DNA from: an uncultured Chlorobiaceae bacterium
GTDB lineage: Bacteria > Bacteroidota > Chlorobiia > Chlorobiales > Chlorobiaceae
Length of the DNA stretch: 64,000 bases
Assembly: GCA_903882665.1 (NCBI GenBank)
Contig: CAIRXW010000011.1
Coordinates: forward strand, 1-64,000
Direction: 5' to 3'
Shown piece by piece: positions 5,252-32,500 of this stretch (position 1 is its first letter; every line of letters begins with the position of its first letter). Position numbers and translations under genes: made by a program. The notes beneath the pieces were generated by a model, which saw only the letters and a list, made by a program, of their open reading frames with translations, was not told the origin of the DNA and ran no database searches.

Positions 5252-5815
5252 TTACTTGCAAGAGGAGGGAGCCGGTTGCTCGGTGTTCATTTTTATGACT
5301 TCGATGCTGTTGACCCATTTGACATGGCGCGGGCCGGTTGCTTTGTCCGTGGCACAGAAGACGACAAAAAGCCCATCCTTATCGATTGGTTTTCCGTTCT
5401 CTTCAAAAATCAGCCAGGTACTGTCGCCGGCCGTCCCGTAATAGAGTTCGTTGTAGGAAAACAGGACGTTGTAGTTATCTATGGAGCGAACAAGGACTGC
5501 GTACTCACCGCGCTGACGGGGGTTCGATAGGACAATTTTCCCCGAATCGAGAATGTCGCGGAGGAGCACACCCTTGTATGTTTTCAGGGTTTTATGGGTT
5601 TCACCTGAATCGCAGACAATTGCGCCGTTTTTTTGTTCCTCAACCTTCATCAGTTTTATGGAGGGGATGGTAATGGTGAACGGTTTTTCCACCAGCCCTG
5701 AAACCGTTACGGTTCTGGAGGTAATGACGTCGGACTTTGCCTGAGCGGTCAACGGGCATGCTACCAATGCAAGAACAAGCAGAAGCCTGAAATGAGCTGA
5801 TAATTTTTTTCTCAT
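5252..5815 (-). CDS. Exported small protein with sulfite-oxidase-type molybdopterin-binding fold
   Basis: 187 residues with a signal peptide (residues 1-27, ending AQA-K). The mature part starts VTVSGLVEKPFTITIPSI and contains YKGVLLRDILDSG, a pattern of the oxidoreductase molybdopterin-binding (SUOX) fold in its short form. Many such short members lack the full cofactor-binding set, so enzymatic activity is uncertain. A C-terminal TGPRHVKWVNSIEV segment matches the end of this fold. It lies downstream of a TonB-dependent receptor whose promoter region carries ModE-like boxes, which makes a role in molybdenum or tungsten handling plausible. That link is inference from context. Confidence 0.68.
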   Translation of the reverse strand: MRKKLSAHFRLLLVLALVACPLTAQAKSDVITSRTVTVSGLVEKPFTITIPSIKLMKVEEQKNGAIVCDSGETHKTLKTYKGVLLRDILDSGKIVLSNPRQRGEYAVLVRSIDNYNVLFSYNELYYGTAGDSTWLIFEENGKPIDKDGLFVVFCATDKATGPRHVKWVNSIEVIKMNTEQPAPSSCK

Positions 5816-5933: not shown

Positions 5934-7916
5934 CTACAACGAGTATCCAACTGAAAGCACAAACTGACGGCCAGGTTCAGGGTATCCTTCTGAAACGGCA
6001 TAGTTGCGGTCGAAAACATTTTCAACTGCAGCCTGAATCGACAGCGAATTATGAAGCGTTGTATTTGCTCTCAGGTTTAGCAGCCCGTAGGATCCGGCGG
6101 TATACTTTCCATCGCTGGTGCTGTATCTTTTCGAATTGTATTCAGCTTCAACCAATGTCCAAGTGTTCTTGCCGAGTAAAAACTGGAGATACCCTGAAAT
6201 TTTGTTATGCGGCACGTCTGTAAAGCGCAACGAAGGATTGCTGTCATTTTTGCGATCAATATAGCTGTACACTCCAAAGGCTTTGAGCCATGATGCCGCT
6301 CTCCAGTCTGCCGAGCATTCAAAACCGGTATAGGTTGCTTCTCCGGTATTTCGGAACTGGTAAACTCCGGGGGTAACATTATCAACTTGCTGGATGACAT
6401 CACTGAGCTTGCTCTGGTAAACCGAGGTCATTAATTTCAGATTGTCTGCCGGTTTTACTGAATAGTCAAGCCCGTAGTTCCAGCTTTTTTCAGGAGCCAA
6501 AGCTGGATTTGGCAAGGCACTTCCAAAACGGTAGGAGTATCGATCCTTCAGGGTTGGAAACCTGGTTGTTCTTGCGAGGTATCCCGTCACTTCCTGATGT
6601 TCGCTGATACGACCGGCCACTGCCAGTTGGTAGTTGGCGGCCTGATTGTCTTCAAGCGGAAATGGGCTGATAACCGTGCCGACAAGATCCTGAGCCTTGA
6701 TGGTATTGCTGAAATCCTGTCGTGCGCCAAAAATCACACTGATATGTTGAGATGCTTTCCATGAATTCTCTACAGCAAGGGAGATGATATTGTCTTCAAA
6801 CTTTTTGGCTGTCTGACCGACATTGTATTCCCTGTGCAGATCATGCTTCTCATGAACGGCAAGCTTGAGGGTGTTGTCTGTGATAAGCTCACCGCCCAAT
6901 TCAGCCGATACGCCGAACGTCTTGTCGTCATAGACGCTGGTAAATCCCTTCTTTTGAGTTGTATACGTGGCATCATCATAGCTGTCCAGAACATTGTAGT
7001 AGCCGTCATAATAGGCTCTTGTTTTCAGGTAACTTTTGCTGCCGATTGCCGTTTTGCCTATGTAGTACAGGCTCGATTTGTCCCAGTCGGTATATTTCCA
7101 GAATCTTGCTTTATTTGCAGGATTTGAACCGGCATAGACCGGAACACCCTTGTTCGAGTTAATGGCATTGAAAGAAAGGGCATATTCGTTGGTGCTGTTT
7201 GGGGTATAACCGATTTTTACCCCTCCCTTGAAATCTTTAGCCTGAGAATTATCTCTTTTGCCGCCGTTTTCATTTTTAGTGGGAACATACGAATCTGAAA
7301 GCGGCAAGAAATCGCTGTTCAGGGTTGAAAGATTTCCCTCGGCATACCATACGCCCTGATTTGAGCCAAAATTCAGCGCGGCAAAATCGGATGCAATACG
7401 GTCGTTTCCGGATATCATTCCTCCTCTCAAGGTCGCTTCAAACTGCTTTTCCGGTTTGCGGCTTACCATGTTAATGGCTCCGCCAAGGGTATTCGGACCA
7501 AATAATACGGAGGTATATCCTTTCGAAACGGTGATTTCGGAGAGATCAAAGGTTGTAAAGCGATTAGGATCAACATATCCGTCATAGGGCACATATTGCG
7601 GAATCCCGTCCAGATAAAGCGGAACCTGACGCATGTCAAACCCTCTTACATAAATCATGCCTTCATTTCTCGCGCCAGCATTGCCCAGATTGATTCCCGG
7701 AAGCAGATTAACTGCCTGCGCTATATTTTTTTTGTCAAGAGTCTCCATAGCATCAGCTGTAACACTCTCTTTACTGTGTTTTTTTTTGCCGGTGACCGTA
7801 ATTTCACCGGCTGTAAATACCTTTTTGCCGCTTGCAGTTGAATCCGAAGGCGTTGCAGCCGCCGAACCGATTTCAGGAGCCGCAAGCAGAAGAACCAGAA
7901 GAACTATCTTTTTCAT
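5934..7916 (-). CDS. TonB-dependent outer-membrane receptor, probably molybdenum/tungsten-regulated
   Basis: 660-residue outer-membrane receptor. A signal peptide (1-20) is followed by a TonB-box-like stretch (FTAGEITVTGKKK, about 33-45). The plug domain has the expected landmarks: NLLPGINLGNAG, IYVRGFDMRQVPLYLDGIP, and SVLFGPNTLGGAINM. A beta-barrel rich in alternating aromatic residues follows, ending GYPEPGRQFVLSVGYSL. TonB-dependent receptors import scarce metal complexes using energy from the inner membrane. Two ModE-box-like palindromes lie 15-42 and 137-166 bases before the start codon, and the gene sits just past the end of the nif operon. Uptake of a molybdate or tungstate complex is therefore a reasonable guess; a siderophore receptor is the default alternative. 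Confidence 0.88.
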   Translation of the reverse strand: MKKIVLLVLLLAAPEIGSAAATPSDSTASGKKVFTAGEITVTGKKKHSKESVTADAMETLDKKNIAQAVNLLPGINLGNAGARNEGMIYVRGFDMRQVPLYLDGIPQYVPYDGYVDPNRFTTFDLSEITVSKGYTSVLFGPNTLGGAINMVSRKPEKQFEATLRGGMISGNDRIASDFAALNFGSNQGVWYAEGNLSTLNSDFLPLSDSYVPTKNENGGKRDNSQAKDFKGGVKIGYTPNSTNEYALSFNAINSNKGVPVYAGSNPANKARFWKYTDWDKSSLYYIGKTAIGSKSYLKTRAYYDGYYNVLDSYDDATYTTQKKGFTSVYDDKTFGVSAELGGELITDNTLKLAVHEKHDLHREYNVGQTAKKFEDNIISLAVENSWKASQHISVIFGARQDFSNTIKAQDLVGTVISPFPLEDNQAANYQLAVAGRISEHQEVTGYLARTTRFPTLKDRYSYRFGSALPNPALAPEKSWNYGLDYSVKPADNLKLMTSVYQSKLSDVIQQVDNVTPGVYQFRNTGEATYTGFECSADWRAASWLKAFGVYSYIDRKNDSNPSLRFTDVPHNKISGYLQFLLGKNTWTLVEAEYNSKRYSTSDGKYTAGSYGLLNLRANTTLHNSLSIQAAVENVFDRNYAVSEGYPEPGRQFVLSVGYSL

Positions 7917-7930
7917 GGAGTTTTATAATT

Positions 7931-7958
7931 ATCGCTATTTCATCAAGTATATAACGGT
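7931..7958 (-). promoter_or_regulatory. ModE-box-like operator, proximal copy
   Basis: The sequence has the layout ATCG-n-TAT...-N6-TATATAACG-GT. Against the known ModE consensus (ATCGnTATATA-N6-TATATAACGAT) the right half has one mismatch and the left half two. It lies 15-42 bases before the TonB receptor start, where a bound repressor would block transcription or initiation. ModE boxes have been reported from green sulfur bacteria in the literature, as I recall. Confidence 0.68.
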
Positions 7959-8052
7959 TGTTAAAAAAATATCTGTTCGATCAGAGTGCCAGCCATTTTG
8001 CAGGCAGCATTGAACAGGGTACCCCTTAGTGGGCATTTTGTTCCGATTTATG

Positions 8053-8082
8053 ATGCGCTATATACAAAAAGATATAACGCAT
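8053..8082 (-). promoter_or_regulatory. ModE-box-like operator, distal copy
   Basis: An inverted repeat with 11-base arms (ATGCGCTATAT / ATATAACGCAT, one mismatch) and an 8-base centre. It contains CG-C-TATATA, N6, then GATATAACG, one mismatch from the core ModE consensus. It lies about 137 bases upstream of the TonB receptor and just beyond the nif terminator, so it is placed to control the receptor operon rather than nif. Confidence 0.68.
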
Positions 8083-8084
8083 AC

Positions 8085-8130
8085 AAAAAAATATGTCGTG
8101 TACTCTTTTGCTGCCAAAAGAGAGCACGAC
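8085..8130 (-). terminator. Intrinsic terminator of the nif operon
   Basis: Two stacked perfect stems, GTCGTG / CACGAC and CTCTTTTG / CAAAAGAG, separated by a two-base internal mismatch on each side, with a 4-base loop (8095-8130). Read on the minus strand it is followed by ATATTTTTTT. It lies just 10 bases after the ferredoxin stop codon. Confidence 0.85.
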
Positions 8131-8140
8131 AAAAAAATAA

Positions 8141-8449
8141 TCAGTTTATCAGGTGCTCTTCGCAGGCTTCGCCCTCTTCAAGAGCGTCAAGGATTTCGTC
8201 GATTTTGTCTTCACTGTCAATTTCGCCGTACCAGAAGCTTTCTGGATAGATCACCAAAACCGGCCCTTTCTCGCAGAGGTTGAGGCACCCTGTTGCCGAG
8301 ACGGTTACATCGCTCATACCCCGGTCAGAGAGCTCGCTTTCGATGTAGGGAATCAGACTGAGCGACTCCTTTTTATGGCAGATCCCCTGTGGTGTTCCCT
8401 GCGCCCGGAAACTTGCGCAGACAAGAATGTGATGCTTTGGTTTGTCCAT
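8141..8449 (-). CDS. Thioredoxin-like [2Fe-2S] ferredoxin at the end of the nif operon
   Basis: 102 residues with the fold and cysteine pattern of thioredoxin-like 2Fe-2S ferredoxins (the Shethna FeSII group): LVCASFRAQGTPQGIC near the N-terminus and TGCLNLCEKGPVLVIYP in the middle, giving four cysteine ligands. In diazotrophs such proteins can donate electrons or form a protective complex with nitrogenase. It is the last gene before a strong terminator and starts about 46 bases after nifB, so it is expressed with nif. The acidic C-terminus (DEILDALEEGEACEE) is typical. Confidence 0.85.
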   Translation of the reverse strand: MDKPKHHILVCASFRAQGTPQGICHKKESLSLIPYIESELSDRGMSDVTVSATGCLNLCEKGPVLVIYPESFWYGEIDSEDKIDEILDALEEGEACEEHLIN

Positions 8450-8495: not shown

Positions 8496-9767
8496 TTACC
8501 CGCATCCGCCACCGGTGCCGGAGCAGCTTGAGCCGCAGGCATGAATCTGACTGCTTTTCATCAGATGTTTCAGATCCTGGCCGTTAAAAAGTCCGTAGAC
8601 AGCCTCTTCAATGACTCCCTCAAGCACCATGACTTCAATCCCTTTGGCCGTCATTACTTTTTTCGGGGAGTCGCCAGCTCCGTTGACGAGCAGTGCCCGG
8701 CAGTCATTCAGGGTATCGGCCAGTGCTTCCCACCGCTCTTTACCTCCGCCAGCGGGAGGGGCGGTTCTCGAATCAACAAGTATGCATGATCCTGTATCGT
8801 CCATGCTGTAAATCAGAAAGCGATCCGCTTCGCCGAGGTGCTGGTTGATCAGCACTCCCTCCATACTGCTGACGGCAATATAGGGCCGAAACTCAGCAGG
8901 GTTTTTGGGCAACGCGGCGGCCTCGGCAAGCTTCTGCATCATCTCTTCGCTGTTGATTTCGCCGATAATGCCGACTGCATCAGCGCGGCACCGGGCGCAG
9001 TGTTTCATTTGCGGCAAATACTGGCTTGTCGCTTTCTGGATTTCACTTACCATTTCCAGAGCTGGTTCGGCAATGTTTTCAAATACCGTCTCAGTCGTGC
9101 TGTAGTACGGCATGCAGTTCAAAATATCGGCTCCCAGTTCAGCAACTTTCCGTGCGACCTCGATGACATGGCTATCGTTGATGCCCGGAATAATAATCGA
9201 GTTTACTTTTGCGGTGACACCAACCTCCTTGAGTTTTTTCAATGCTTCAAGCTGGCGGTCGATCAGCAGTTTCGCGGCATCAAGGTCGCGGTACATTTTT
9301 TTGTTGTACCGTACCCATGCATAGATTTCCGCTCCGATTTCCGGATCAATAGCATTGATGGTAATGGTCACATGGCTCACCTGCAATTTTGCAAGCTCAT
9401 CAATATAAGGCAGCAGGTCGAGTCCGTTGGTTGCCACGCAGAGCAGCATCTCGGGATATTTGGCCCGAACCAGCCGGAGGGTTTCCATCGTCTCATCCGG
9501 GTTGGCGAAGGGATCGCCGGGACCGGCAATACCCACAACCGCAATGTTTGGCGAGAGGATCATTGCCTGATCAAGATAGTGCATGGCCTGTTGCGGCGAC
9601 AATATCTTGCTTGTCACGCCGGGACGGTTTTCGTTCATGCAATCGAATTTCCGGTTGCAGTAGTTGCACTGAATATTGCATTTCGGTGCAATCGGGAGGT
9701 GGATACGCCCGAACTTGTGGCGCGACGCATCGTTGAAACAGGGGTGGTTTGCGATTTTAAGTGTCAT
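8496..9767 (-). CDS. nifB: NifB, radical SAM synthase of the nitrogenase cofactor core
   Basis: 423 residues. Makes NifB-co, the carbide-containing iron-sulfur core of the iron-molybdenum cofactor. The radical SAM motif CNIQCNYCNRKFDC lies near residues 31-44, preceded by RIHLPIAPK. The radical SAM part runs to about residue 290. It is followed by a NifX/NafY-like domain (about 300-400) and a Cys/Gly-rich tail ending SCSGTGGGCG. Spacing to nifN upstream is 12 bases, and the ferredoxin gene follows. All parts look intact. Confidence 0.96.
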   Translation of the reverse strand: MTLKIANHPCFNDASRHKFGRIHLPIAPKCNIQCNYCNRKFDCMNENRPGVTSKILSPQQAMHYLDQAMILSPNIAVVGIAGPGDPFANPDETMETLRLVRAKYPEMLLCVATNGLDLLPYIDELAKLQVSHVTITINAIDPEIGAEIYAWVRYNKKMYRDLDAAKLLIDRQLEALKKLKEVGVTAKVNSIIIPGINDSHVIEVARKVAELGADILNCMPYYSTTETVFENIAEPALEMVSEIQKATSQYLPQMKHCARCRADAVGIIGEINSEEMMQKLAEAAALPKNPAEFRPYIAVSSMEGVLINQHLGEADRFLIYSMDDTGSCILVDSRTAPPAGGGKERWEALADTLNDCRALLVNGAGDSPKKVMTAKGIEVMVLEGVIEEAVYGLFNGQDLKHLMKSSQIHACGSSCSGTGGGCG

Positions 9768-9779
9768 GGTATCCTCCCT

Positions 9780-11132
9780 TTACATATAAGTATAGCCGAT
9801 TGATGAAGCATTCTGCCGCTGTTCGATAACGGTGTTGACGATCCGGTCAAACAGTTCCTGTGTGCCCCGGTACCCAAGATGGTGCATCCTCTGGCCTCCG
9901 AACCGGTCGTGAATCGGGAAGCCGAGCCGGAGCAGCGGGATATTGTTTTTTCTTGACATGGTATAGCCCTTGCTGTTGCCGATAAGAAAATCGGGTTTCA
10001 GCACTTTGGCTTCATCCTCGATATCAGCAAAGTCAACCCCCTCACGCACCTTGATACCGAGTTCTTCCATATCAGGGATAAGCTCCATGATCCGTTTTTT
10101 CAGCAGACCGCTTTTTCCTCCCGAGGCGCAGAGGAGGGGCGTCATACCGATTTCACTCAGAAATGCAGTCATGGCAACCACGAGGTCTTCTTCGCCGTAG
10201 AGGATGGCCTTTTTTTCAAAGACATATTTATGGCCGTCTGCATAAGCGTCAATCAGGCGGCGCCGTTCATCCTCATATTTTTCGGGCCTCGGCTTGCCTG
10301 TCAGCGTTTCGAGCAGGCTGAAAAACTTGTCGCTCTCCTTGATGCCGATGGGCAGGGAGAGATGATACCGCGGTACGTCGAACGCCTCTTCGAGATAGCC
10401 TGCAGCCGATTTTGATGCTTCAAGTGTTGAACCGAACTCAATGCTTGCTGACGCACTTCCCGCCGAAACAATAGCGCTTGCCGGAGTGCCACCGGGCGGT
10501 ATGCGGTGATACTCGCCCCACGGGCCGCCATCCATGGTCTGGGAGTAATCGGGCAGCAACATCAAGGGAGCCTTAAAATCATTGAATATCTCCTTGAGGT
10601 AGCGCAGGTCGGCTGGCGAGACCATGTTCGGAAAAAGGTTGATCAGGCTCTGCTCTTCGCCTTTCTCGGCCAGGGTTTTGACGGTTGCCCTTACGGCGGC
10701 ATGAAAGCCATCGATGTGGCTGCCCTGGTAGCTTGGCGTCGAGGCATGAATCAAAATCGGCATTGGTGTGCCGTTCTTGAACTCCTTCTTATACTCACGC
10801 AAAATTCCGGGTACATCATCGCCAATGGTCTCGCTCAGGCAGGTGGTTGCCACTCCGATAACCTGTGGCTTATACTGATCGGAGACGTTTTTCAGTCCGA
10901 TTTTCAGGTTATGGCTGCCGCCGAAGACCGCGCTCTCTTCATGGAAGTTTGATGAAGCGATATCGATCGGCTCTTTATAATGGCTGATCAGGTAACGCCG
11001 AATATAGGTGGCACACCCCTGTGAACCGTGCAGGAACGGTACACAGCTCTCTATCCCCCGGAATGCAAGGCATGCGCCAAGCGGGTTGCAGAGCTTGCAG
11101 GCGTTCTGTGTTGCTGTTTTTGCGTGTTTCAT
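9780..11132 (-). CDS. nifN: NifN, cofactor scaffold subunit
   Basis: 450 residues, beta-like partner in the NifEN scaffold on which NifB-co matures to the iron-molybdenum cofactor. NifK-like cysteine sites are visible: CNPLGACLAFRG, HGSQGCATYIRR and TTCLSETIGDD. The frame opens at 11165, but AGGAGG six bases before ATG 11132 decides the start. That ATG overlaps the nifE stop as ATGA, which indicates translational coupling and a one-to-one complex. Confidence 0.94.
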   Translation of the reverse strand: MKHAKTATQNACKLCNPLGACLAFRGIESCVPFLHGSQGCATYIRRYLISHYKEPIDIASSNFHEESAVFGGSHNLKIGLKNVSDQYKPQVIGVATTCLSETIGDDVPGILREYKKEFKNGTPMPILIHASTPSYQGSHIDGFHAAVRATVKTLAEKGEEQSLINLFPNMVSPADLRYLKEIFNDFKAPLMLLPDYSQTMDGGPWGEYHRIPPGGTPASAIVSAGSASASIEFGSTLEASKSAAGYLEEAFDVPRYHLSLPIGIKESDKFFSLLETLTGKPRPEKYEDERRRLIDAYADGHKYVFEKKAILYGEEDLVVAMTAFLSEIGMTPLLCASGGKSGLLKKRIMELIPDMEELGIKVREGVDFADIEDEAKVLKPDFLIGNSKGYTMSRKNNIPLLRLGFPIHDRFGGQRMHHLGYRGTQELFDRIVNTVIEQRQNASSIGYTYM

Positions 11133-12490
11133 AGGGTACCTCCTTTTCTTGGAGCGAACTGCCATACCGGGCTCATGACCGATTGATAGACCTCCAGTGC
11201 AAAATTATACATGCCGATAAATCCGGCCAGAGGGATCTTCCTCTCATGGTTATGATCGCAGAATCCGATACCAAGTTTGAAGGCTATCGGGCGTTCCTTG
11301 ACTCCTCCGATAAGCAGGTCAGCCTCTTTTTCAAGAATAAATTTTGAGAGCTCGACGGGATTAGAGTCGTCCACAATCACCGTTCCTTCATCGCACATCT
11401 CTTTCAACCGCGCATAATCATCCTTGTTGCCTGTCTGTGATCCGGCAAGCACGACCGACATGCCGATTGAACGCAATGCCTTGATGAGCGAGAATGTCTT
11501 GAATGCACCACCGACATAGATGGCCGCTTTCTTGCCCGTCAGCGCTTTTTTGAACTTTTGCAGCGAAGGGTAGAGCGTTTTCACCTCTTCACTGACAACC
11601 TGCTTTGCCGCATCCATAATATCAGGGCGGTCAGGAAAATATTTTGCGACATCATAGAGCGATTTCGACATATCCTCAATACCGAAGTAGGAGACCCTGA
11701 TATAGGGTATTCCATACTTCTCCTCCATCTCCTTGGCCAACCAGGTCATTGAGCCCGAGCACTGCACAACGTTGAGGGTTGCACCGTGTGCCCGCCGTAC
11801 CGCATCAATACGTCCGTCACCAGTGAGGGTTGCGACAACCTCAATGCCCATCTTTTCGTAGTACTGCCTGATAATCCAGGCTTCCCCGGCAAGGTTGAAT
11901 TCGCCAAGAATGTTGATACTGTACTTGCTGATCTCCTCGGTTGATCCTGTCCCGATCAGCTTCATCAAGGCATGGCAGGCGGCCTTGTAGCCATCCTTTT
12001 TGGTGCCCTTGAACCCTTCGGAATGAACCGGCAGCACCGGAATTCCGCACTCTTTGGCCACTTTTTTGCATACAGCATCAATATCGTCACCGATAAGGCC
12101 GACAATGCAGGTCGAATAGATAAAGGCTGCTTTTGGTTTATACTGCTCAATCAGTTCAATCAGCGAGTGGTAAAGCTTTTTTTCTCCGCCGTAGATGACA
12201 TCCATCTCCTGCAGGTCGGTGGAAAAGCTTAACCGGTGCAATTCAGGGCCTGAAGAGACAGCGCCCCGGATGTCCCACGTATAGGCCGCGCACCCGATAG
12301 GGCCATGAACAACATGAATAGCATCCGCTATGGGATAGAGCACCACGCGGGAACCGCAAAAGACGCAGGCTCGCTGGCTGACCGATCCGGAGAGGCTTGA
12401 AGTGTCGCAGGCAATATCGGGTTGCGACACCCCTTTTTTCTTTTCGAAGATCTGCTTTTGCCGTCCTTCAAGAATCGTGATCTGTTCCAT
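11129..12490 (-). CDS. nifE: NifE, cofactor scaffold subunit
   Basis: 453 residues, alpha-like subunit of the NifEN scaffold. Cysteine sites matching the NifD P-cluster positions are seen: RACVFCGSRVVL, HGPIGCAAYTWD and STCIVGLIGDD. The cofactor-pocket region reads VQCSGSMTWL, where NifD has its cofactor-ligating cysteine. An upstream extension of the frame to 12547 is possible, but the ATG at 12490, with an AGGGG-like site (AAAAGGGGTAGAAGCT) before it, gives the normal N-terminus MEQITILEG. The gap to nifK contains a short GCCCC/GGGGC stem (12567-12579). Confidence 0.94.
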   Translation of the reverse strand: MEQITILEGRQKQIFEKKKGVSQPDIACDTSSLSGSVSQRACVFCGSRVVLYPIADAIHVVHGPIGCAAYTWDIRGAVSSGPELHRLSFSTDLQEMDVIYGGEKKLYHSLIELIEQYKPKAAFIYSTCIVGLIGDDIDAVCKKVAKECGIPVLPVHSEGFKGTKKDGYKAACHALMKLIGTGSTEEISKYSINILGEFNLAGEAWIIRQYYEKMGIEVVATLTGDGRIDAVRRAHGATLNVVQCSGSMTWLAKEMEEKYGIPYIRVSYFGIEDMSKSLYDVAKYFPDRPDIMDAAKQVVSEEVKTLYPSLQKFKKALTGKKAAIYVGGAFKTFSLIKALRSIGMSVVLAGSQTGNKDDYARLKEMCDEGTVIVDDSNPVELSKFILEKEADLLIGGVKERPIAFKLGIGFCDHNHERKIPLAGFIGMYNFALEVYQSVMSPVWQFAPRKGGTL

Positions 12491-12594
12491 AGCTTCTACC
12501 CCTTTTACATAAAATGTTGTTGTCCTTCTTTCCCCCGGGGCTTGCACCCTGTGCTATCAAAATGCTGCCCCTGCGGGGCTGAAGAACTATTGCT

Positions 12595-13977
12595 TTACAT
12601 GACCAGTTCAAACTTTTCCTCAAGTGCGTCACGATCCTGGCGATCCATCACGGCATTGAGAAGTTTTTCAACCAACCTCAATCCTCCGCTGTACCCGACA
12701 TTCGGGAAGTAGCTGTGACCGATACGGTCGAGAATCGGGAAGCCGAAGCGGATAAAAGGAACATCTTCGTCACGTGCTATATACTTTCCATACGTGTTGC
12801 CGATCAGCAGATCAACCGGTTCATTCTTCATCCACTGGTGAAGCAGGAACATGTCTGCCTGAAGCCCGTTGCGGAATTTGGTTTCCGGAGAGCGTGCATC
12901 AAGAAGCTGGCGCATCTGTTTTTCAAAGCGCTGGCCGGGTGTGCCGCTGACGATATGAACAGGTTTCATGTTCAGGTCAAGCAGGAACTCGGTAAGCGGA
13001 AGCAGTTGATCCGGATCGCCGAACAGTGCCACTCTCTTGCCATATAAATACTGTTCCATATCGGCCATCACATCAACCAGACGTCCCCTTTCAGCCGTAA
13101 TCTCATCAGGCACCTTTACACCGGCAACCTGGCTGAGCGCCATAATGAAGCGGTCGGTTGCCGAGAGGCCGATGGGCATGTCAAGCGTTTCAAATGCCAC
13201 TTTGCAGCTCTTTTCGAGGGCGATTGCCGCTGGTTCTGCACTGATCGCTCCAAGAGCAAGTGAAGAGATGCTGTCGCCAGCGCTCTGCAGCTCTGCTACT
13301 GTGGTGCCGCCCTTAGGGTAGAACTCATGCTTGCCGGTTTGCGGAGCATCGAGTACATCCGAAGTGTCGGGGAAAAGCACAATCTTGACGCCAAGCTCTT
13401 TCGACAGACGCTTGATTTCACGCATGTCGGAAGGTTCCATCCAGCCGGCAATAATGTTGAACTGGTGCTTTTTTACACCGGTTGAGACGGCAAACTGGGT
13501 GGCAATACCCGTGACCATATTGGCATAACCGGTAACGTGCGATCCGATAAAGCTCGGTGTGCTGGCAAAAATGACATACTTGCCTTCAGGAACTTTTCCG
13601 TCATCCTTTGCTTTTCTCGTGATCTGCTGCAAATCATCACCAATTGTTTCAGAGAGGCAGGTCGAGTGCACCGCAATGATGTCAGGATCATAGACCGAAA
13701 AGATGGTTTCGATGGCCGCAAGGAGGTTTGCCTGGCCGCCGAACACTGAAGCACCTTCGGTGAACGAACTTGTTGCCGCCATAACAGGCTCTTTGTAGTG
13801 GCGGGTCAGGGTGCTGCGGTGGTAGGAGCAGCATCCTTGTGAGCCATGGCTGTGAGGCAGACAGCCATGAATACCGAGCGCTGCATACATGGCGCCGATT
13901 GGCTGGCACGTTTTCGCAGGGTTGATGGTCAGCCCTTCACGCTCTTTAACCTCTTTTGATGTGTGTCGTAATAACAT
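12595..13977 (-). CDS. nifK: NifK, beta subunit of molybdenum-iron nitrogenase
   Basis: 460 residues. Catalytic MoFe protein beta chain. P-cluster cysteines lie in CQPIGAMYAALG, GSQGCCSYHRS and STCLSETIGDD. It lacks the roughly 60-residue N-terminal extension of the Azotobacter protein, as do NifK proteins of the clostridial/GSB-like clade. It starts 26 bases after nifD. The tail ends EEKFELVM. It pairs with NifD as an alpha2-beta2 tetramer in the cytoplasm. Confidence 0.96.
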   Translation of the reverse strand: MLLRHTSKEVKEREGLTINPAKTCQPIGAMYAALGIHGCLPHSHGSQGCCSYHRSTLTRHYKEPVMAATSSFTEGASVFGGQANLLAAIETIFSVYDPDIIAVHSTCLSETIGDDLQQITRKAKDDGKVPEGKYVIFASTPSFIGSHVTGYANMVTGIATQFAVSTGVKKHQFNIIAGWMEPSDMREIKRLSKELGVKIVLFPDTSDVLDAPQTGKHEFYPKGGTTVAELQSAGDSISSLALGAISAEPAAIALEKSCKVAFETLDMPIGLSATDRFIMALSQVAGVKVPDEITAERGRLVDVMADMEQYLYGKRVALFGDPDQLLPLTEFLLDLNMKPVHIVSGTPGQRFEKQMRQLLDARSPETKFRNGLQADMFLLHQWMKNEPVDLLIGNTYGKYIARDEDVPFIRFGFPILDRIGHSYFPNVGYSGGLRLVEKLLNAVMDRQDRDALEEKFELVM

Positions 13978-14003
13978 AATTTAATAGTCTCCGTTTTCCC
14001 TCA

Positions 14004-15638
14004 TTACTGTGTCACGTAACTGGCTGCAAGTCCTGCACCGTTTCCGTTCTTTTCCCATGGTGCCTTGATCAGTTTCCATACCGGGTTGTTCACCATACGG
14101 TCGATGTCTTTATAGAAGTTAACCGCTCCCTCAAAGCCAGTGTAAGGACCGCCGTAATCGTAGCTGTGAAGCTGTTTGAGCGGAATACCCATTTTCTGAA
14201 CCACATACTTCTCCTTGATACCGGCGCAGAATATATCCGGCTTGTAGATCTCGATCAGCTTTTCAGACTCATAGTGGCTGAGGTCATCAACAACGAGCGA
14301 CTTCCTGGTCATCTGCTTCATCATTCCCTCATAGCCGTTAATCTCCAGTCCCTTCTCTTTCAGTGCTTTAAGCTCCGCTTCGGTTTTTCTCGGATTGAAG
14401 AGTTCCGGATCAGGGAGCACTTTCAGCTCCTCAATGTTCTTGCTGTCGGCATCAATCTTGATGCTGGGCAGCACGTGACGACCTTCGTAGTCATCGCGGT
14501 GTGCAAACTCATATCCTGCGGCCACCGTTGTCATGCCAAGCTCGGCAAAGAGATCCTGGTAGTGGTGGGCACGTGATCCACCCACAAAGAGCATGGCCGT
14601 TTTGCCAGTCGTTCTTGGCAGGATTTCATCAATGACCGCTTTCACTCTCGGTGTCTCCTCCGCAATCACCTCTTCGACCTTTGCCTTGAGTTCCTCGTCG
14701 CCAAAGTATTCAGCAATTTTGCGGAGCGACTTGGCTGTCGATTCGGCGCCGACAAAGTTGACCTTCATCCATGGAATACCGTACTTCGTCTCCATCATGT
14801 CACCCATATAGTTGATCGACCGGTGACAAAGGATGACGTTTAAATCTGCTGTATGGGCGTTTTCTATCGCTCTGACCGTTGAGTTGCCGCTGAAGGAAGC
14901 GACCAGTGTAATGCCGACCTTCTCAAAAATGCGTTCAATCTCAAAAGCGTCACCGCCAATGTTATACTCGCCAAGCAGGTTGAGCTTGAACTTGCCCACG
15001 CTCGGGGTGTTGTTGCGGCCAACCATGTGCTTGAAGACGCCGTTGTTGGCAATGTGGTGGCCAGCCGACTGGCTTACGCCCCTGTACCCTTCGCAACTGA
15101 ACCCAAAGACGTTGCAGTCACCGAACTTCTCACGCATCTCTTTTGATGCCGCATGAACGTCATCACCAATCAGGCCAACCGGACAGGTCGAGAAGATGGC
15201 GATGGATTTCGGATGAAAGAGGTCATAAGCCTCCTGGATTGCAATTTTCAGCTTCTTTTCACCGCCGAAAACCACATTCTCCTCCTGCATATCAGTCGAG
15301 AAGCAGTAGGGGATATAGTTTGCGTCCATCAGCGACTCGGTTCTGGTCTGGTTACGGCGGGTTAACCAGGCATAAAAGCTGCAACCGATCGGGCCGTGTA
15401 CAATGTTGACGATATCGCGTGTAGGTCCGAGCACCACACCCTTGCAACCGGCATAAGAGCATCCACGCTGCGTGATGATGCCTGGAACGGTACGCACGTT
15501 TGCCTGTACTTCGGGAATAATTAGCGGGTCATTGACAATAATCGACTTGGCCCGTTTTTTTGCGACCTTGGCCGGGTATTTTTGTATCAGCTCCTCCCTG
15601 ACTTTGGAAGGATCGGGAAAATGTATGTTCGCCTCCAT
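14004..15638 (-). CDS. nifD: NifD, alpha subunit of molybdenum-iron nitrogenase
   Basis: 544 residues. The P-cluster cysteines lie in RGCSYAGCKG, HGPIGCSFYAW and STCPVGLIGDD. The cofactor ligands are in ILCHRSINYM (Cys) and QLHSYDYGGPY (His). The substrate-channel residues of CEGYRGVSQSAGHHIAN (Gln, His) and WLTRRN (Arg) are kept. Between about residues 385 and 445 there is a roughly 50-residue insertion (PSIKIDADSKNIEELKVLPD and following) not found in Azotobacter. That insertion is characteristic of the anaerobe clade of Mo-nitrogenases. All catalytic residues expected for an active molybdenum enzyme are present. Confidence 0.97.
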   Translation of the reverse strand: MEANIHFPDPSKVREELIQKYPAKVAKKRAKSIIVNDPLIIPEVQANVRTVPGIITQRGCSYAGCKGVVLGPTRDIVNIVHGPIGCSFYAWLTRRNQTRTESLMDANYIPYCFSTDMQEENVVFGGEKKLKIAIQEAYDLFHPKSIAIFSTCPVGLIGDDVHAASKEMREKFGDCNVFGFSCEGYRGVSQSAGHHIANNGVFKHMVGRNNTPSVGKFKLNLLGEYNIGGDAFEIERIFEKVGITLVASFSGNSTVRAIENAHTADLNVILCHRSINYMGDMMETKYGIPWMKVNFVGAESTAKSLRKIAEYFGDEELKAKVEEVIAEETPRVKAVIDEILPRTTGKTAMLFVGGSRAHHYQDLFAELGMTTVAAGYEFAHRDDYEGRHVLPSIKIDADSKNIEELKVLPDPELFNPRKTEAELKALKEKGLEINGYEGMMKQMTRKSLVVDDLSHYESEKLIEIYKPDIFCAGIKEKYVVQKMGIPLKQLHSYDYGGPYTGFEGAVNFYKDIDRMVNNPVWKLIKAPWEKNGNGAGLAASYVTQ

Positions 15639-15676
15639 GTAGCTCTCTCCGTTTACACCTTTTAAATATTGCTCTG

Positions 15677-16054
15677 TTAGTTCAGTGCTTCATCACCCTT
15701 TTCGCTGGTTCTGACCCTTATGGTTTCGACAATCGGCGTTACAAAGATCTTGCCATCACCGGGTTTACCTGTCTGGTTTGCCTTGATGATGGTGTCGATA
15801 GCGGTTTTGTACAACTCATCAGGCACAACCACAGTCAGAATTCTCTTGGCCACAAGCCTCGGTGCGTTGCCAAGCTGGGCAATGGCCTCGGGGTGGCCTT
15901 CAGCAGCGCCATTGAGAATATCATAATGAACCACGCCCTTGCCGCGACCCATCACCCTTCCGGTAGCGGTAAATGCCGGAATACCTGCTTCAATCAGCGC
16001 TTTCTTCGTTGCATTCACCTTGTTGATCCGTATGACTGAAATAATCTCTTTCAT
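15677..16054 (-). CDS. nifI2: NifI2, PII-like nitrogenase switch-off regulator
   Basis: 125 residues, GlnB family. Begins MKEIISVIRINKVNATKKAL and has the longer T-loop region (MGRGKGVVHYDILNGAAEGH) typical of NifI2. The C-terminal signature PGDGKIFVTPIVETIRVRTSEKG is the family ATP-binding B/C loop. With NifI1 it binds and inhibits dinitrogenase when fixed nitrogen is available, relieved by 2-oxoglutarate and ATP. Its ATG directly follows the NifI1 stop codon (TGA-ATG). Confidence 0.93.
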   Translation of the reverse strand: MKEIISVIRINKVNATKKALIEAGIPAFTATGRVMGRGKGVVHYDILNGAAEGHPEAIAQLGNAPRLVAKRILTVVVPDELYKTAIDTIIKANQTGKPGDGKIFVTPIVETIRVRTSEKGDEALN

Positions 16055-16411
16055 TCAAGCCTCCTTTGCTGACGCAAGCATTGGTTCTGTTTCTCTTTCA
16101 CCAGAGCTTATGGTGTAAACCTCCTCTACGCTTGAAATAAAGATCTTTCCGTCACCGAACTTTCCTTCCGGGCCTGACTTTGCATTCTCCATGATGGCTC
16201 GTATCACGAAATCCTTGTCATTGTCGGGCACCACAACGAAGAGCATCTCTTTGGGGATTTCGTCATAGACCACATCGCCAACGCGCAGACCGCGCTGCTT
16301 GCCTCGTCCGACAACCGAGATTTTCGTTACAGCCGGGAATCCAGCATCGAGCAGTCCCTGCATGACATCATAAACCTTTTCCGGCCTGACGATTGTTCTG
16401 ATCATTAACAT
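16055..16411 (-). CDS. nifI1: NifI1, PII-like nitrogenase switch-off regulator
   Basis: 118 residues, GlnB family. Begins MLMIRTIVRPEKVYDVM; has VVGRGKQRGLRVGDVVYDEIPKE in the T-loop region and FGDGKIFISSVEEVYTISSGE at the C-terminus. Position between nifH and nifD, paired with nifI2, is the arrangement known from archaea, clostridia and green sulfur bacteria. GGAG lies nine bases before the chosen ATG; the third codon is another ATG. Confidence 0.93.
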   Translation of the reverse strand: MLMIRTIVRPEKVYDVMQGLLDAGFPAVTKISVVGRGKQRGLRVGDVVYDEIPKEMLFVVVPDNDKDFVIRAIMENAKSGPEGKFGDGKIFISSVEEVYTISSGERETEPMLASAKEA

Positions 16412-16429
16412 GTGCTTGTACTCCGTTTT

Positions 16430-17266
<837 letters not shown>

Positions 17267-19414: not shown

Positions 19415-20347
19415 ATGACCGTTGAGGAAATTATCAGGATGCTCGATAATCCTGCAACCATTGGCGAGGCTTTACGCGAAGCTGCGAAGTTGCCATTTGA
19501 GGGAAACGACAAGGTGAGATTTAATGAAAAACGGGATCAATACATTGATGGATTGACGGCTCACCAATTACCACACTGGGTTGGTCAAATGAAAGGACTT
19601 TTGTCGAAGTATGAAGATTGTAATGATGCTGTAACTACTGGTAAAGGTTTCAGGAATTATACATTTGACCGGGATAATCAGTGGCATTATCTCGACAAAA
19701 AGAAGTTCAGGGAAAGAGTCGGCGAGATCTGCGACGACAGGCATAATCCTGTCAAAGTGATTTTTATTGAGCATAACCATCTTGAGTTTTCAGATCAGAT
19801 GCATGAAATCCTGAGATCATTTATCAAGGAAGACTATAAAGAGATTCATGATATCTTGAGCCCCACTGAGGGGAAGATGGGTCATGTCATTAACTTTGAC
19901 AACAGCGAAAAACTGGAAAAGTATTGGGATGATTTCATGAGAAAGTTTTTTCAAGTTCCGTCAATCCATAAAGAAATTCCCGATACCTTGAGAGGTAGAG
20001 GGTTTTACCAAACGCCACATATTATTATCCACTCTGTTGGCAAGCTGGATAGCACATGTTGGGATAATTTCCGGCTCTATTGCAGCTTTTGGACAGAATT
20101 ATGCACTGAACACCCTGTTTTCCTTTGCATGTTTCTTCCTCCTGAGCATTCTTTGCCGAGGGATTTTGATTATTTGCCTCACTGGATCCCCTGTTATTGC
20201 GATGAATACGAAACGGTAGGGCCTTTTGATTTTACCTGTTTTTTCAACGACTATACATCCTATCAAAAGGATGAAAATCTTTGCGAATGCACTTCCCTAA
20301 TGCGTTTTAGTGAAGCAGTAAAAAAATTGCGCTATTGTCAACCCTGA
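19415..20347 (+). CDS. Shared adaptor module fused to a possible inactive STAND-type domain
   Basis: 310 residues. Residues 1-65 are the shared module (MTVEEIIRMLDNPATIGEAL and following). The remaining 240 residues have a Rossmann-like start (NPVKVIFIEHNHLEFSDQMHE), where a P-loop would be expected but none is present, and a later hydrophobic strand TEHPVFLCMFLPPEH. This looks like the inactive-STAND (iSTAND) type of protein described in NTP-dependent conflict systems, which would couple an effector-linked adaptor to the NTPase partners. The assignment is by resemblance and is uncertain. It starts 34 bases after the previous gene and ends 9 bases before the MoxR gene. Confidence 0.68.
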   Translation: MTVEEIIRMLDNPATIGEALREAAKLPFEGNDKVRFNEKRDQYIDGLTAHQLPHWVGQMKGLLSKYEDCNDAVTTGKGFRNYTFDRDNQWHYLDKKKFRERVGEICDDRHNPVKVIFIEHNHLEFSDQMHEILRSFIKEDYKEIHDILSPTEGKMGHVINFDNSEKLEKYWDDFMRKFFQVPSIHKEIPDTLRGRGFYQTPHIIIHSVGKLDSTCWDNFRLYCSFWTELCTEHPVFLCMFLPPEHSLPRDFDYLPHWIPCYCDEYETVGPFDFTCFFNDYTSYQKDENLCECTSLMRFSEAVKKLRYCQP

Positions 20348-20356
20348 GATTGAGCC

Positions 20357-21442
20357 ATGGAACATTACAACTTTTACAATAACAGAAGCGAAGAGAACGC
20401 AGGCTTTACGGCGTCTCCAGAAAATCGCCAGCCATTCAAGTTGAGTCGGGATGAGCAGTTTCCCATGCTTAAGCGGAACAACAATTCTGCGGGTACCATC
20501 AAACGTGGTGCAGACTATAAACCTTCGGAGGCATTGATACATGCGGTCAATGTGGCGTTGATGCTGCACAAACCCCTGCTGCTGACCGGTGAACCCGGAA
20601 CAGGGAAGTCAGATCTCGCATATCATCTTGCCGACCATTTTGGTTGGGGTGAGGTTGAACCTTTTGTAACACGAACCGACTCAGTGGCAACCGATCTGCT
20701 CTACCGGTACGACAGCCTTGCCCATTTCCAGAAAGTGAATATCCAAAGAGAGTGTGGTGAAGTACATGTTCGTGACATTGAAAAGATGTTCATCAGCTAT
20801 CTGGCGCTTGGTCGTGCAATCCTTGATTCAAACGGTCAAAATGAAGAAGGTGTGCCAAAACGCAGGGTTGTGCTTATTGACGAAATCGACAAGGCTCCCC
20901 GCGACCTGCCCAATGATATCCTGACAATTATTGAGGAGATGAGCTTTGAAGTGCCGCAACTGAAAACAGCCGATGGCTTGCAATACCCAAGCAAAGAAAA
21001 CCCTATCTATAAAAAAACAGGCAATGACGAGCTGAAGCCGGTGGTCATTCTCACCAGTAATTCTGAAAAGACCCTGCCTGAAGCCTTTCTTCGCCGTTGC
21101 GTCTTTTTCCATATTGCAATGCCTGGCGAAGAGCAATTGATGGAAATTTTGCTGGCCAAACAGTCGATTTTACCCGGCCTCACTGAACAGGAAAGCAGTG
21201 CGTTTATCAAACTCTTTTTCACCATTCGTGATCTGGTGAAAGGCAAAAAACCAGCCACGCACGAACTGATTTTATGGATATGGTGGATGCGGGCGCACCG
21301 CTTTACACCCGCTGACATTTACCGGTTCAACAAAACAGCGACAAATGCTGCCACCTTGCTGAGCGGAATCTCTGTTTTGGCCAAGGAGGCTGATGACTGG
21401 AAAAAGGTAACTGAAGCCATTGCAGCCAAGCTCAAGGGATAA
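20357..21442 (+). CDS. MoxR-type AAA+ ATPase of the conflict system
   Basis: 361 residues. Walker A GEPGTGKS at residues 78-85, Walker B VVLIDEIDKAP near 172-182, and sensor/arginine region ILTSNSEKTLPEAFLRRCVFF near 230-250 define a MoxR-like AAA+ ATPase. MoxR ATPases work with vWA-domain partners as chaperones or remodelers. Its stop codon overlaps the start of the vWA/FGE gene (TAATG), so the two are made together. In conflict systems the pair would act as an NTP-dependent switch. All nucleotide-binding motifs are intact. Confidence 0.88.
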   Translation: MEHYNFYNNRSEENAGFTASPENRQPFKLSRDEQFPMLKRNNNSAGTIKRGADYKPSEALIHAVNVALMLHKPLLLTGEPGTGKSDLAYHLADHFGWGEVEPFVTRTDSVATDLLYRYDSLAHFQKVNIQRECGEVHVRDIEKMFISYLALGRAILDSNGQNEEGVPKRRVVLIDEIDKAPRDLPNDILTIIEEMSFEVPQLKTADGLQYPSKENPIYKKTGNDELKPVVILTSNSEKTLPEAFLRRCVFFHIAMPGEEQLMEILLAKQSILPGLTEQESSAFIKLFFTIRDLVKGKKPATHELILWIWWMRAHRFTPADIYRFNKTATNAATLLSGISVLAKEADDWKKVTEAIAAKLKG

Positions 21443-29507: not shown

Positions 29508-32500
29508 ATGATTGAACCGCTCATACTCAGGCCTGATGAAGGCATCCTCAACCGCTACCCTGAACTGGTGAAGATGGCTGCCGAGCTTTCGGAGCTCTAT
29601 GCCGATCGCGAAAAACTGGTGACCGACAACGCCTTGCAGGCAATTGGAACCCTCTTGTGGCGTGCGCTTGATGCTGACGAGCCATTCCGGCAGGCCAGAA
29701 AGCGGGCAGGGCAGCATCTTCTGCCCATCGTCATTGAGAGTGGCAAACCGGAGATATTGCGTCTTCCGTGGGAAACGCTCTACCATCCCGAGTCTGGTTT
29801 TCTTGGCCGCAGTGAAGGCTTTACCCTGTCGCGAGCCATGCCCGCCACCGGTGCAGAGCTGCCAGCCATTGAAGATGGGCCGTTGAGAGTGCTGCTTTTT
29901 ACCGCATTGCCTGATGACATTGGGGAAAAAGAGCAGCTTCGCATTGAGGATGAGCAGGCGCTGGTGCTGGAGGCGCTTGGCCAGTGGCGGCAGAGCGGTC
30001 ATGTGCTGCTTGAAATGCCGGATGACGGTCGATTCAGTGAGTTTACCCATCAACTGCAACATTTCAGGCCGCACCTTGTCTATCTCAGCGGTCACGGTGT
30101 GTTCCATAAAGATTACCTGAAGCCTGACAACGACAAGGGATACTTCCTTTTCGAGAGCGACAACGATGGAGGAGAGCTGGTTGATGAAGAGCGACTTGCT
30201 GCTGCATTTACCGGCACAACCTTGCAGGCGGTGATTCTCTCGGCATGTCACTCCGGCAAAGCCTCCTCGGCCAGTTTGAACAATGGGTTGATGCAGCGGC
30301 TTGCCGACAAAGGCATTCCCCACGTTATTGGCATGAGGGAGTCTATTCTTGACCGCGCCGGGCTTCAGTTTGCCCGTGCCTTTTTTGGCGCACTGATGCA
30401 GCAAGAGAGTATTGCCGCCTCCTTGCAGCAGGCTCGTCGGGCCATCGTGCGGCCTCTGCATGATGATGAAGAGCTGCGTCATTCACACTTGGCCGAACTC
30501 TCACTGGGTCAGTGGTGCCTGCCGATGCTGCTCAGCCATCAGTGTGACCGCCAGTTGGTCACCGGTCGTTTTACTCCGAAGCCGATGCGTAAAGCTAATC
30601 ACCGAAACAAGACTTTTAAGCAGGTCTCTTTACCGGAAAGGTTTATTGGGCGTCGTCGTGAACTGCGCAAGATACAGCGTTCTTTCCGGGAAGGAACAAC
30701 CACGGCACTTTTGCTTATTGGTGCGGGAGGAATGGGGAAAACAGCACTTGCAGGGAAGCTTGTTATGGGTCTCAAAGCTGATGGTTATGAGGTGTTTTGC
30801 CTTTCTTTTCGTCCTGAAAACAATTGGCGCCAAATGTTGTCCTCTCGCATTCCATTTTCTCTTGATGACAAGCGAAGAGAAACATACGAAAAAGCAATTT
30901 CTAACCAGAATGACCTTGTATTTCAGGCAGAATGTTTGTTGTCATTGTTACTTGAGCAGTTCGATGGTAAAGTGGCTTTCTTGTTTGATAACCTTGAATC
31001 CGTTCAGGAACCATCCACTTGCAATCTTACTGATATCGAGTTGTCCGATTTGATTGCTATGGCGCTTGATTTGCAGGAAGATGGGTTACGGGTTGTTCTC
31101 ACCTCCCGCTGGGCGCTGCCGGAGTGGCTTGAGCAGCTCTACCCGCTTGGCAAACCGGTCTACCGCGACTTCCTTGCGGTGGCGCAACAGCAGAAACTTC
31201 CAAAAGAGTTTTTAACGGATTTCAAGCGATTGCGTCAGGCTTATGAGGTGCTTGGAGGCAACTACCGTGCGCTTGAGTTTTTTGCGGCGGCCTTGCCGGA
31301 GATGAACACCATTGAAGAAGAGCAGCTTGTTGTATCTCTTCGGAAGGCGACAGAGGAGATACAAACCAACATGTTGCTTGAGCTGGTCTTTAGCCACAGG
31401 CAACCGGAAGAACAGCAGTTGCTTCGCACTCTGGTGGCTTACGAGGTGCCGGTAGCTTTTGAAGGGGTAAAGGCTCTGGTGCTGCATGAGCTTGAGCTTC
31501 CCGAAAAAGCTCTGGAGGCGCTGCTTTCGGTTTCACTGATTGAGCGATTGGAGAATAAGACTTGGCAAGCTGAAGAGTTTCTGGTGTCGCCATTGGTGCG
31601 TGACTGGCTGCTGCAACAAGAGGGAGCAACGGATTCCAGTGAGCAGCTTCAACGTGCTGCCGGATATTTGCAGTGGCTTCTGGAAAATGAGCGCCGAACC
31701 GTTGTGCAGGCATTTATTACCTACGCAGCACTCCTTGCTGCTGGTATGAATGAAGAGGCGTACCTCATAACGCTCCGCTGGATCGTTGAACCAATGAATC
31801 GAGCAGGTCTTTATCAAACACTTCTTGATACATGGTTGCCGCCTGTATGCAATTCTACTCAGCCAATAACTTTGTCGATAGGATTAGGTCAAGTTGGAAT
31901 CCAGTATCTGCGTATAGCGAAATATGACACCGCTCTCGACTACTTGAAAGGATCACTCGCTATTGTAGAAGAAATCGGTGACAAGTCGGGCGAAGGGACG
32001 ACGCTCAATAATATCTCGCAGATATTTCAAGCCAGAGGCGACTATGACACTGCGCTGGGTTACCTGAAAAGGTCGTTGGCGATAAGGCAGGAAATCGGTG
32101 ACAAGTCGGGCGAAGGGACGACGCTCAATAATATCTCGCAGATATTTCAAGCCAGAGGTGACCATGAGACAGCGTTGGAGTACCTGAAAAGGTCTCTGCA
32201 GATAATGCAGGAAACCGGAGAGAAATCAGGCGAAGGAACGATGCTGAGTAATATCGGTGGTATATATCATGTTCGAGGTGAATATAAGACAGCGCTGGAG
32301 TACCTAAAAAGGTCGCTTGCGATAAGGCAGGAAATCGGCGACAAAAGAGGCGAAGGGACGACGCTTAATAATATCTCGCAGATATTTCAAGCCCAAGGCG
32401 GGTATGATACTGCTTTCGAGTACCTGAAAAGGTCTCTGCAAATAATGCAGGAAATCGGAGACAAAGGAGGTGAAGGAGCTATGCTCAATAATATCTCGCA

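Follow-up and report, generated by a model that had tools for sequence, protein, structure and literature searches.

A TonB-dependent receptor with predicted ModE operators beside the nif genes of an uncultured Chlorobiaceae bacterium: a candidate molybdenum importer found in several phyla

The passage of molybdenum through the outer membrane is usually ascribed to porins, and to our knowledge no outer-membrane receptor belongs to the ModE regulon of Escherichia coli. The consensus operator of E. coli ModE is ATCGNTATATA-N6-TATATANCGAT (PMC545781, accessible part). An outer-membrane molybdate route is described in Pseudomonas aeruginosa, where IcmP works with secreted ModA (PMC8602904, accessible part), and the TonB-dependent receptors MnoT and OprC take up manganese and copper, respectively. 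Here, we analyzed a 64,000-nucleotide stretch of DNA (the window) from an uncultured Chlorobiaceae bacterium (GCA_903882665.1, contig CAIRXW010000011.1), in which a TonB-dependent receptor gene, named TBDT-A, lies next to the nif genes and is preceded by two palindromes that resemble ModE boxes. We consider it likely, judging from sequence comparisons, that TBDT-A is a ModE-repressed, TonB-dependent importer of molybdenum species that works with a periplasmic partner of the PF00174 family. This supports the interpretation in the initial annotation of the window, in which the receptor and the adjacent protein were thought to be repressed when molybdate is ample and induced on starvation.

The locus resembled the E. 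coli ModE regulon in its operator sequence and spacing, in a full-length ModE with a helix-turn-helix (HTH) and two TOBE domains, and in a modDABC cluster of the genome that likewise follows a candidate box, but the target here would be a TonB-dependent receptor and its PF00174 partner. Like MnoT and OprC, TBDT-A would actively take a scarce metal through the outer membrane under the control of a metal-linked regulator, whereas the metal, the regulator and the partner are different (PMC8602904, accessible part). The type VI secretion system (T6SS)-ModA-IcmP route of P. aeruginosa likewise has an outer-membrane molybdate step, but as described in the accessible parts of two papers it is not a ModE-boxed TonB receptor (PMC8602904, PMC11734730). 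No TonB receptor described as ModE-controlled was found in the open-access literature, a coverage that takes in neither the key 2003 ModE-box paper nor RegPrecise. That 2003 study reportedly found ModE boxes in green sulfur bacteria, and part of the green sulfur ModE regulon may already be in print.

Both palindromes were found where the initial annotation had placed them, in the 224-bp gap between the end of the nif genes and the receptor. Box 1 (CGCTATTTC-ATCAAG-TATATAACG) and box 2 (CGCTATATA-CAAAAA-GATATAACG) had two mismatches and one mismatch, respectively, to the search pattern CGYTATATA-N6-TATATARCG. Only one of them had been taken as fully spaced; in fact, both had the 6-base spacer of the E. 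coli consensus. They were the sole matches in the window with up to three mismatches, and shuffled sequences gave an expectation of 0.03. The genome to which the window belongs (as contig C11) comprises 2.81 Mb in 57 contigs and is 99.9% complete. At the same threshold it contained three sites, boxes 1 and 2 and a third (C8:129650-129673) located 309 bp 5' of a ModD gene (TIGR01334, 249 bits vs. a cut-off of 179) that leads modD, modA, modB and modC. The existence of a ModE homologue had been set beforehand as a test of the proposal, and a full-length gene was found on another contig (G000:C47:7357-8166). Its product of 269 amino acids (aa) scored 102.1 against the NCBIfam model ModE_repress (cut-off 98.5) and 145.3 against Mop (cut-off 55), with two Mop domains above the cut-off, and matched E. 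coli ModE (1b9m) at 3.5e-37 over residues 20-267.

The control, which was the same pattern read backwards, matched the genome at eight sites compared with the three true ones (up to three mismatches), and at two sites compared with two (up to two mismatches). The short half-site search of this genome was uninformative (254 forward and 314 reverse matches vs. 301 and 325 for the control). Because the backwards control matched the genome more often, motif matching in a single genome is weak evidence alone, and the identity of the boxes was settled by conservation across relatives and not by motif counts in one genome. The eight backwards matches would also fit the explanation that the palindromes are sites of another regulator, their likeness to ModE boxes coming from chance or AT-rich composition; in view of the comparisons below, that explanation appeared highly improbable.

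Receptor orthologues were searched in 98 genomes of the order, including the own genome, and 28 genomes contained them at 58-96% identity and near full length, plus fragments. Of 30 strong receptor rows, the 28 with a locus were examined; the remaining two were a second copy in genome G008 and a fragment in G019. At least one box (up to three mismatches) was present within 1 kb upstream in 21 of the 28 loci, counts that are not independent since the loci are related to one another. These upstream regions contained 36 boxes with up to three mismatches and 22 with up to two, whereas shuffled sets averaged 0.01 and the backwards pattern gave 3 and 0, respectively. Most genomes of the same genus had a pair of boxes near -40 and -160. 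In an alignment of 11 related upstream regions, islands of conservation were seen at both boxes and the remainder drifted; a ATTTTTTTAA-like block beside box 1 was nearly invariant. Across the order, 87 sites with up to two mismatches were found in 50 of the 98 genomes, compared with 20 for the backwards pattern. The ModE search matched 84 of the 98 genomes at E <=0.001, with a few matches being merely TOBE-type stretches. The 11 genomes G087-G097 had no box at up to two mismatches, and no ModE was found in them. In four relatives whose loci (L numbers) were fetched (L094, L098, L102, and L105), at most a few genes separated the ModE gene from the receptor.

Outside the green sulfur bacteria, named genomes were scanned with an alignment of 11 receptors, and the best 80 of 144 relatives were examined, which gave 79 loci. 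Twenty-three belonged to Chlorobi (largely the same contigs as in the order set) and 56 were others, including L136, a distant metagenome-assembled genome (MAG) labelled Chlorobiaceae. The box and tblastn counts cover all 56 non-Chlorobi loci, and the gene maps cover part of them. Thirty of the 56 had a box (up to three mismatches) within 600 bp upstream. Together they contained 35 upstream sites, or 1.04 per kb compared with 0.020 per kb elsewhere in the same loci; there were 0.01 sites per shuffle set and six for the backwards pattern. By tblastn, a mod-type gene was detected in 35 loci (some matches labelled ModE may be TOBE parts of ModC) and the PF00174 partner in 28. In all, 48 loci had a box, a mod gene, the partner or some combination of these. 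The holders of boxes were Sphingobacteriaceae, purple sulfur bacteria, Alcaligenaceae and others, many of them with modE, modABC or the partner alongside. Five further loci had an adjacent ModE gene (L159, L160, L164, L170, and L183).

The operons differed in order. In Pedobacter BAL39 (L144), TBDT-A was followed by a MauG-type peroxidase, PF00174, modA (its product above the ModA cut-off), modB and modC. In Ectothiorhodospira (L165), the order was modABC, box, a second TonB-dependent receptor, box, TBDT-A and PF00174; in Simplicispira (L185), modABC, box and TBDT-A; and in Thermomonas (L181), modABC, box, PF00174 and TBDT-A. The Mucilaginibacter operon ran from an HTH-only ModE through a box to TBDT-A, MauG and PF00174. 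The ModE-like protein there had 115 aa and the DNA-binding domain only (ModE_repress, E 1.8e-24), and its gene lay directly before the receptor in L137 (5530-5877), with comparable positions in further Mucilaginibacter loci. In 13 Sphingobacteriaceae loci, including L184 (8150-9301), a gene of the di-haem cytochrome c peroxidase/MauG type stood beside the receptor and the PF00174 gene.

In a phylogeny of 78 receptors, the presence or absence of a box required 18 changes, against 26.1 when the labels were shuffled; boxes are therefore clustered, although they have frequently been lost or shifted, or have escaped the pattern. One TBDT-A copy, in G040, has an internal stop; the alignment does not include it, nor does the tree include its named copy (L113). 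TBDT-A with predicted ModE boxes is found in Chlorobiota, Bacteroidota and Pseudomonadota, and in single loci of Fibrobacterota and Acidobacteriota. Cultured bacteria with the receptor include Chlorobium ferrooxidans, Chlorobaculum thiosulfatiphilum, Pedobacter BAL39 and Mucilaginibacter. A TonB receptor route had initially been proposed for green sulfur bacteria; a ModE-boxed family does exist there, but it is not confined to them.

Chance palindromes were rejected on the conservation among orthologues, the footprint-like islands and the excess of boxes outside Chlorobi. Against another regulator stood the box pairs kept at the same spacing in orthologues, the excess of boxes over shuffles and over the remainder of the same loci, the lack of boxes in the 11 genomes where ModE was not found, and the ModE genes adjoining the receptor in the loci named above. 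Some observations, besides the backwards matches and the relatedness of the loci, weigh against the view that TBDT-A is a ModE-controlled importer. Seven of the 28 orthologue loci had no box within 1 kb at up to three mismatches, although the upstream sequence of one is just 248 bp long and another locus is fragmentary. Instead, several of the g2 genomes carried either a box some 900 bp upstream that precedes a methylase gene or, at -39, a site with four mismatches. Genomes G042 and G059, both incomplete MAGs, had one site each though no ModE was found in them. Among the 56 non-Chlorobi loci, 26 lacked a box within 600 bp and eight showed none of box, mod gene or partner. Five loci counted among the 30 with boxes come from Verrucomicrobia or Lentisphaera and have a deviant palindrome of the CGATATA type, 376-493 bp upstream. 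The promoter scan gave no convincing promoter, and the structure model of TBDT-A (predicted local distance difference test, pLDDT, 55.8) was of too low quality to show a binding site. A variant palindrome of the type CGATATA...TATATCG was itself conserved 376-493 bp before the receptor in L148, L150, L153, L154, L161, and L169 of Verrucomicrobia and Lentisphaera.

Inspection by eye suggested that TBDT-A begins like a signal peptide and contains GEITVTG, a stretch resembling a TonB box. The own genome encodes three Plug-domain receptors, and the boxes were found before TBDT-A only. Its nearest named relatives were from Chlorobium and uncultured Chlorobiaceae, which places the bacterium among the green sulfur bacteria, and it had no close solved relative (best phmmer match BtuB, E 3.1e-9). 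TBDT-A was most like siderophore, heme and B12 receptors, with TIGR01783 and TIGR01785 as the best NCBIfam models, all far below their cut-offs (107.3 vs. 223.5 for TIGR01783, the TonB siderophore receptor). FecCD or BtuF-like ATP-binding cassette (ABC) transporter genes were detected by tblastn in 18 of the 56 non-Chlorobi loci and also occur in the Chlorobaculum-type operon. These features would suit a siderophore-type receptor for an iron-binding catechol or similar ligand, controlled by ModE as the same ligand carries molybdenum (a molybdophore, perhaps made by a neighbour), in which case the cargo would be a metallophore complex and not a molybdenum oxyanion. We regard this as an unlikely but serious alternative, which overlaps partly with an importer of molybdenum species. 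However, the operons of L144, L165, and L181 carry ModABC in place of a siderophore ABC transporter, and Fur-box-like sites in the 300 bp upstream of the 28 orthologues were not above chance (0 vs. 1.56 in shuffles with up to six mismatches, and 10 vs. 9.18 with up to seven). On the latter result, Fur (iron) control of the receptor, the second test set in the initial annotation, gained no support and was rejected.

In L103 (6627-18013), and also in L091, L096, and L100, a box preceded an operon of a SUMT-like methylase, TBDT-A, FecCD, an ABC ATPase, a methyltransferase (not in all), a BtuF-like protein, SBP_bac_6, a CobW-like protein and an ABC ATPase; the operon closed with a second receptor in L091, L100, and L103. 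The methylase scored below the CobA cut-offs and is a tetrapyrrole-like methylase in a candidate molybdenum-controlled uptake operon. The presence of the receptor in such runs in the Chlorobaculum-type genomes (where the run ends in a second receptor) and in G086 would fit the import of a tetrapyrrole or corrinoid, with ModE control linking molybdenum status to cofactor needs. This explanation seemed improbable: TBDT-A scored 87.8 against a cut-off of 599.7 for the B12 receptor BtuB (TIGR01779), the methylase was below all CobA/SUMT cut-offs, and the window locus and most Bacteroidota loci have no run of methylase, FecCD and BtuF-like genes.

The gene next to the receptor had been annotated as a molybdopterin-fold protein. 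The fold was borne out (PF00174, sulfite-oxidase-like), but the protein is a small one with a single domain. Alone, it gave no significant solved relative with phmmer; relatives were found by profile and fold comparison. Its model (pLDDT 82.9) matched the SoxCD sulfite dehydrogenase (2xts, Z 16.1), sulfite oxidases and PruR (7kou; Z 14.9, root mean square deviation 2.2, 123 residues). Cys68 (IVCDSG) aligned with the Cys of the MVCAGN segment in fungal nitrate reductase, which we take to be the molybdenum ligand. Cys68 was present in the window protein and in all 10 partner family members aligned, and the segment with the molybdenum-ligating Cys was lost in four Bacteroidota partners (alignment A2). 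The sulfite oxidase family (SoxCD, sulfite dehydrogenase, and YedY) shares the cofactor-domain fold and the Cys position, whereas the partner has only about 187 aa and no second domain, and its cofactor binding and catalysis are only putative. In fold, size and single domain it resembled PruR, a periplasmic pterin-binding protein; however, PruR has a Trp in place of the molybdenum-ligating Cys (PMC13259868, accessible part), and the window partner keeps Cys68. The partner could thus hold a molybdenum-pterin, a pterin or a molybdenum species.

From these comparisons we infer ModE binding, repression, molybdenum as the cargo and the role of the partner. When molybdate is ample, molybdenum-loaded ModE would sit on box 1 and shut off the pair of TBDT-A and PF00174 genes, and box 2 would probably add occupancy. 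When molybdenum is scarce, ModE would release the operators and the receptor would be made. TBDT-A would then carry a molybdenum species, with molybdate, thiomolybdate, and a metallophore or pterin complex as candidates, across the outer membrane with TonB energy. The sulfite-oxidase-fold partner would handle it in the periplasm, and the inward step would be taken by ModABC, present in the own genome, or by a BtuCD-like ABC transporter; one clear FecCD permease is encoded elsewhere in that genome. The position of box 1, whose near edge is 17 bp from the ATG, suits a repressor. Conversely, ModE might activate the pair, so that an ample molybdenum supply would turn the receptor on, for instance to take up tungstate or a different oxyanion; box 2 at -163 is a possible activator position, and ModE is said to activate some E. 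coli genes. We consider activation quite improbable, since box 1 (-40 to -17), beside the ATTTTTTTAA-like block, suits promoter occlusion, and uptake genes elsewhere are said to be repressed by ModE. A further extension of the ModE-repressed importer, which we hold to be rather unlikely, is that TBDT-A and its partner form a widespread scavenging system that imports molybdenum already complexed with an organic ligand, pterin-like or otherwise (in sulfidic water perhaps thiomolybdate instead), with the partner capturing the complex or stripping the metal from it.

The minus-strand order of the locus was nifH, two P-II-like genes, nifD, nifK, nifE, nifN, nifB and a small ferredoxin, then a hairpin, the palindromes, the receptor and the PF00174 gene (Table 1). 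The receptor thus adjoins genes of a molybdenum enzyme, as had been annotated. The hairpin is probably the end of the nif transcript and would set nif apart from the receptor; it was not called by the terminator scan, whose rule requires a T run nearer the stem. The sigma-70 promoter and terminator scans gave matches no richer than in shuffles. A run at 19415-23958 of the window, not far from nif, encodes a MoxR-type AAA ATPase (20357-21442) as well as an 838-aa protein with a C-terminal FGE-sulfatase domain (21442-23958). A 1219-aa CHAT-ATPase-TPR protein, perhaps involved in defence or signalling, was encoded at 29508-33167.

Table 1. Features of the receptor locus in the window; positions relative to the ATG refer to the receptor gene
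Feature	Position	Strand	Remarks
Mo-nitrogenase gene run	8496-17254	-	
nifH	16430-17254	-	above NCBIfam cut-off
P-II-like gene	16055-16411	-	grouped with 15677-16054 by sequence only
P-II-like gene	15677-16054	-	below P-II cut-offs
nifD	14004-15638	-	above NCBIfam cut-off
nifK	12595-13977	-	above NCBIfam cut-off
nifE	11129-12547	-	above NCBIfam cut-off
nifN-like	9780-11165	-	below nifN cut-off; named by position
nifB	8496-9767	-	above NCBIfam cut-off
Thioredoxin-like [2Fe-2S] ferredoxin	8141-8449	-	final gene of nif run; below Pfam cut-off, E 3.7e-4
Strong hairpin	8094-8131	-	T runs on both sides; folding -21.5 kcal/mol, z -6.8
Candidate ModE box 2	8056-8079	unspecified	-163 to -140 from ATG
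Candidate ModE box 1	7933-7956	unspecified	-40 to -17 from ATG; minus-strand reading CGTTATATACTTGATGAAATAGCG
TonB-dependent receptor TBDT-A	5934-7916	-	660 aa; Plug PF07715 70 bits (cut-off 23.9), beta-barrel PF00593 94.2 (cut-off 27)
Periplasmic-type PF00174 protein (sulfite-oxidase/PruR-like fold)	5252-5815	-	187 aa; next gene downstream of receptor, same strand

The neighbours of boxes in the relatives were surveyed at 30 box loci, taken from the 87 sites with up to two mismatches. They comprised three receptor families, modA, modB, modD, modE, a nifA-like gene, nifH, a molybdopterin oxidoreductase and Porin_5 genes, and some of the loci had no recognizable target. Judged by these neighbourhoods, the genes look as a molybdenum regulon should. 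Box-like sites were located before nifH, a nifA-like gene and Porin_5 genes, and near a molybdopterin oxidoreductase, in L066, L047, L046, L057, and L058. A second receptor of about 740 aa, TBDT-B (without a Pfam match in L088), was encoded in L088 (7378-9600), L089 (7794-10028), and L090 (8893-11088), in an operon with a ModA-type protein and a ModB-like permease and with boxes in front. The ModA-type protein was above the TIGR01256 cut-off in L088, and the loci of L088 and L090 also had a divergent TOBE protein and an ABC ATPase. TBDT-B is possibly an even more direct molybdenum receptor.

Molybdenum scarcity can limit nitrogen fixation, and such a receptor beside nif in green sulfur bacteria bears on how nitrogen fixers cope in molybdenum-poor sulfidic lakes and, by analogy, may bear on ancient sulfidic seas too. 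Sulfidic water converts molybdate to thiomolybdates (PMC3528336, accessible part). TBDT-A also occurs in Mucilaginibacter and Alcaligenes, which suggests a role that goes beyond nitrogenase. The occurrence of the same receptor with boxes and mod genes in several phyla points to a dedicated, as yet putative, outer-membrane molybdenum importer, and, if this is true, the ModE-controlled TonB receptor family would add a new class to the known metal importers.
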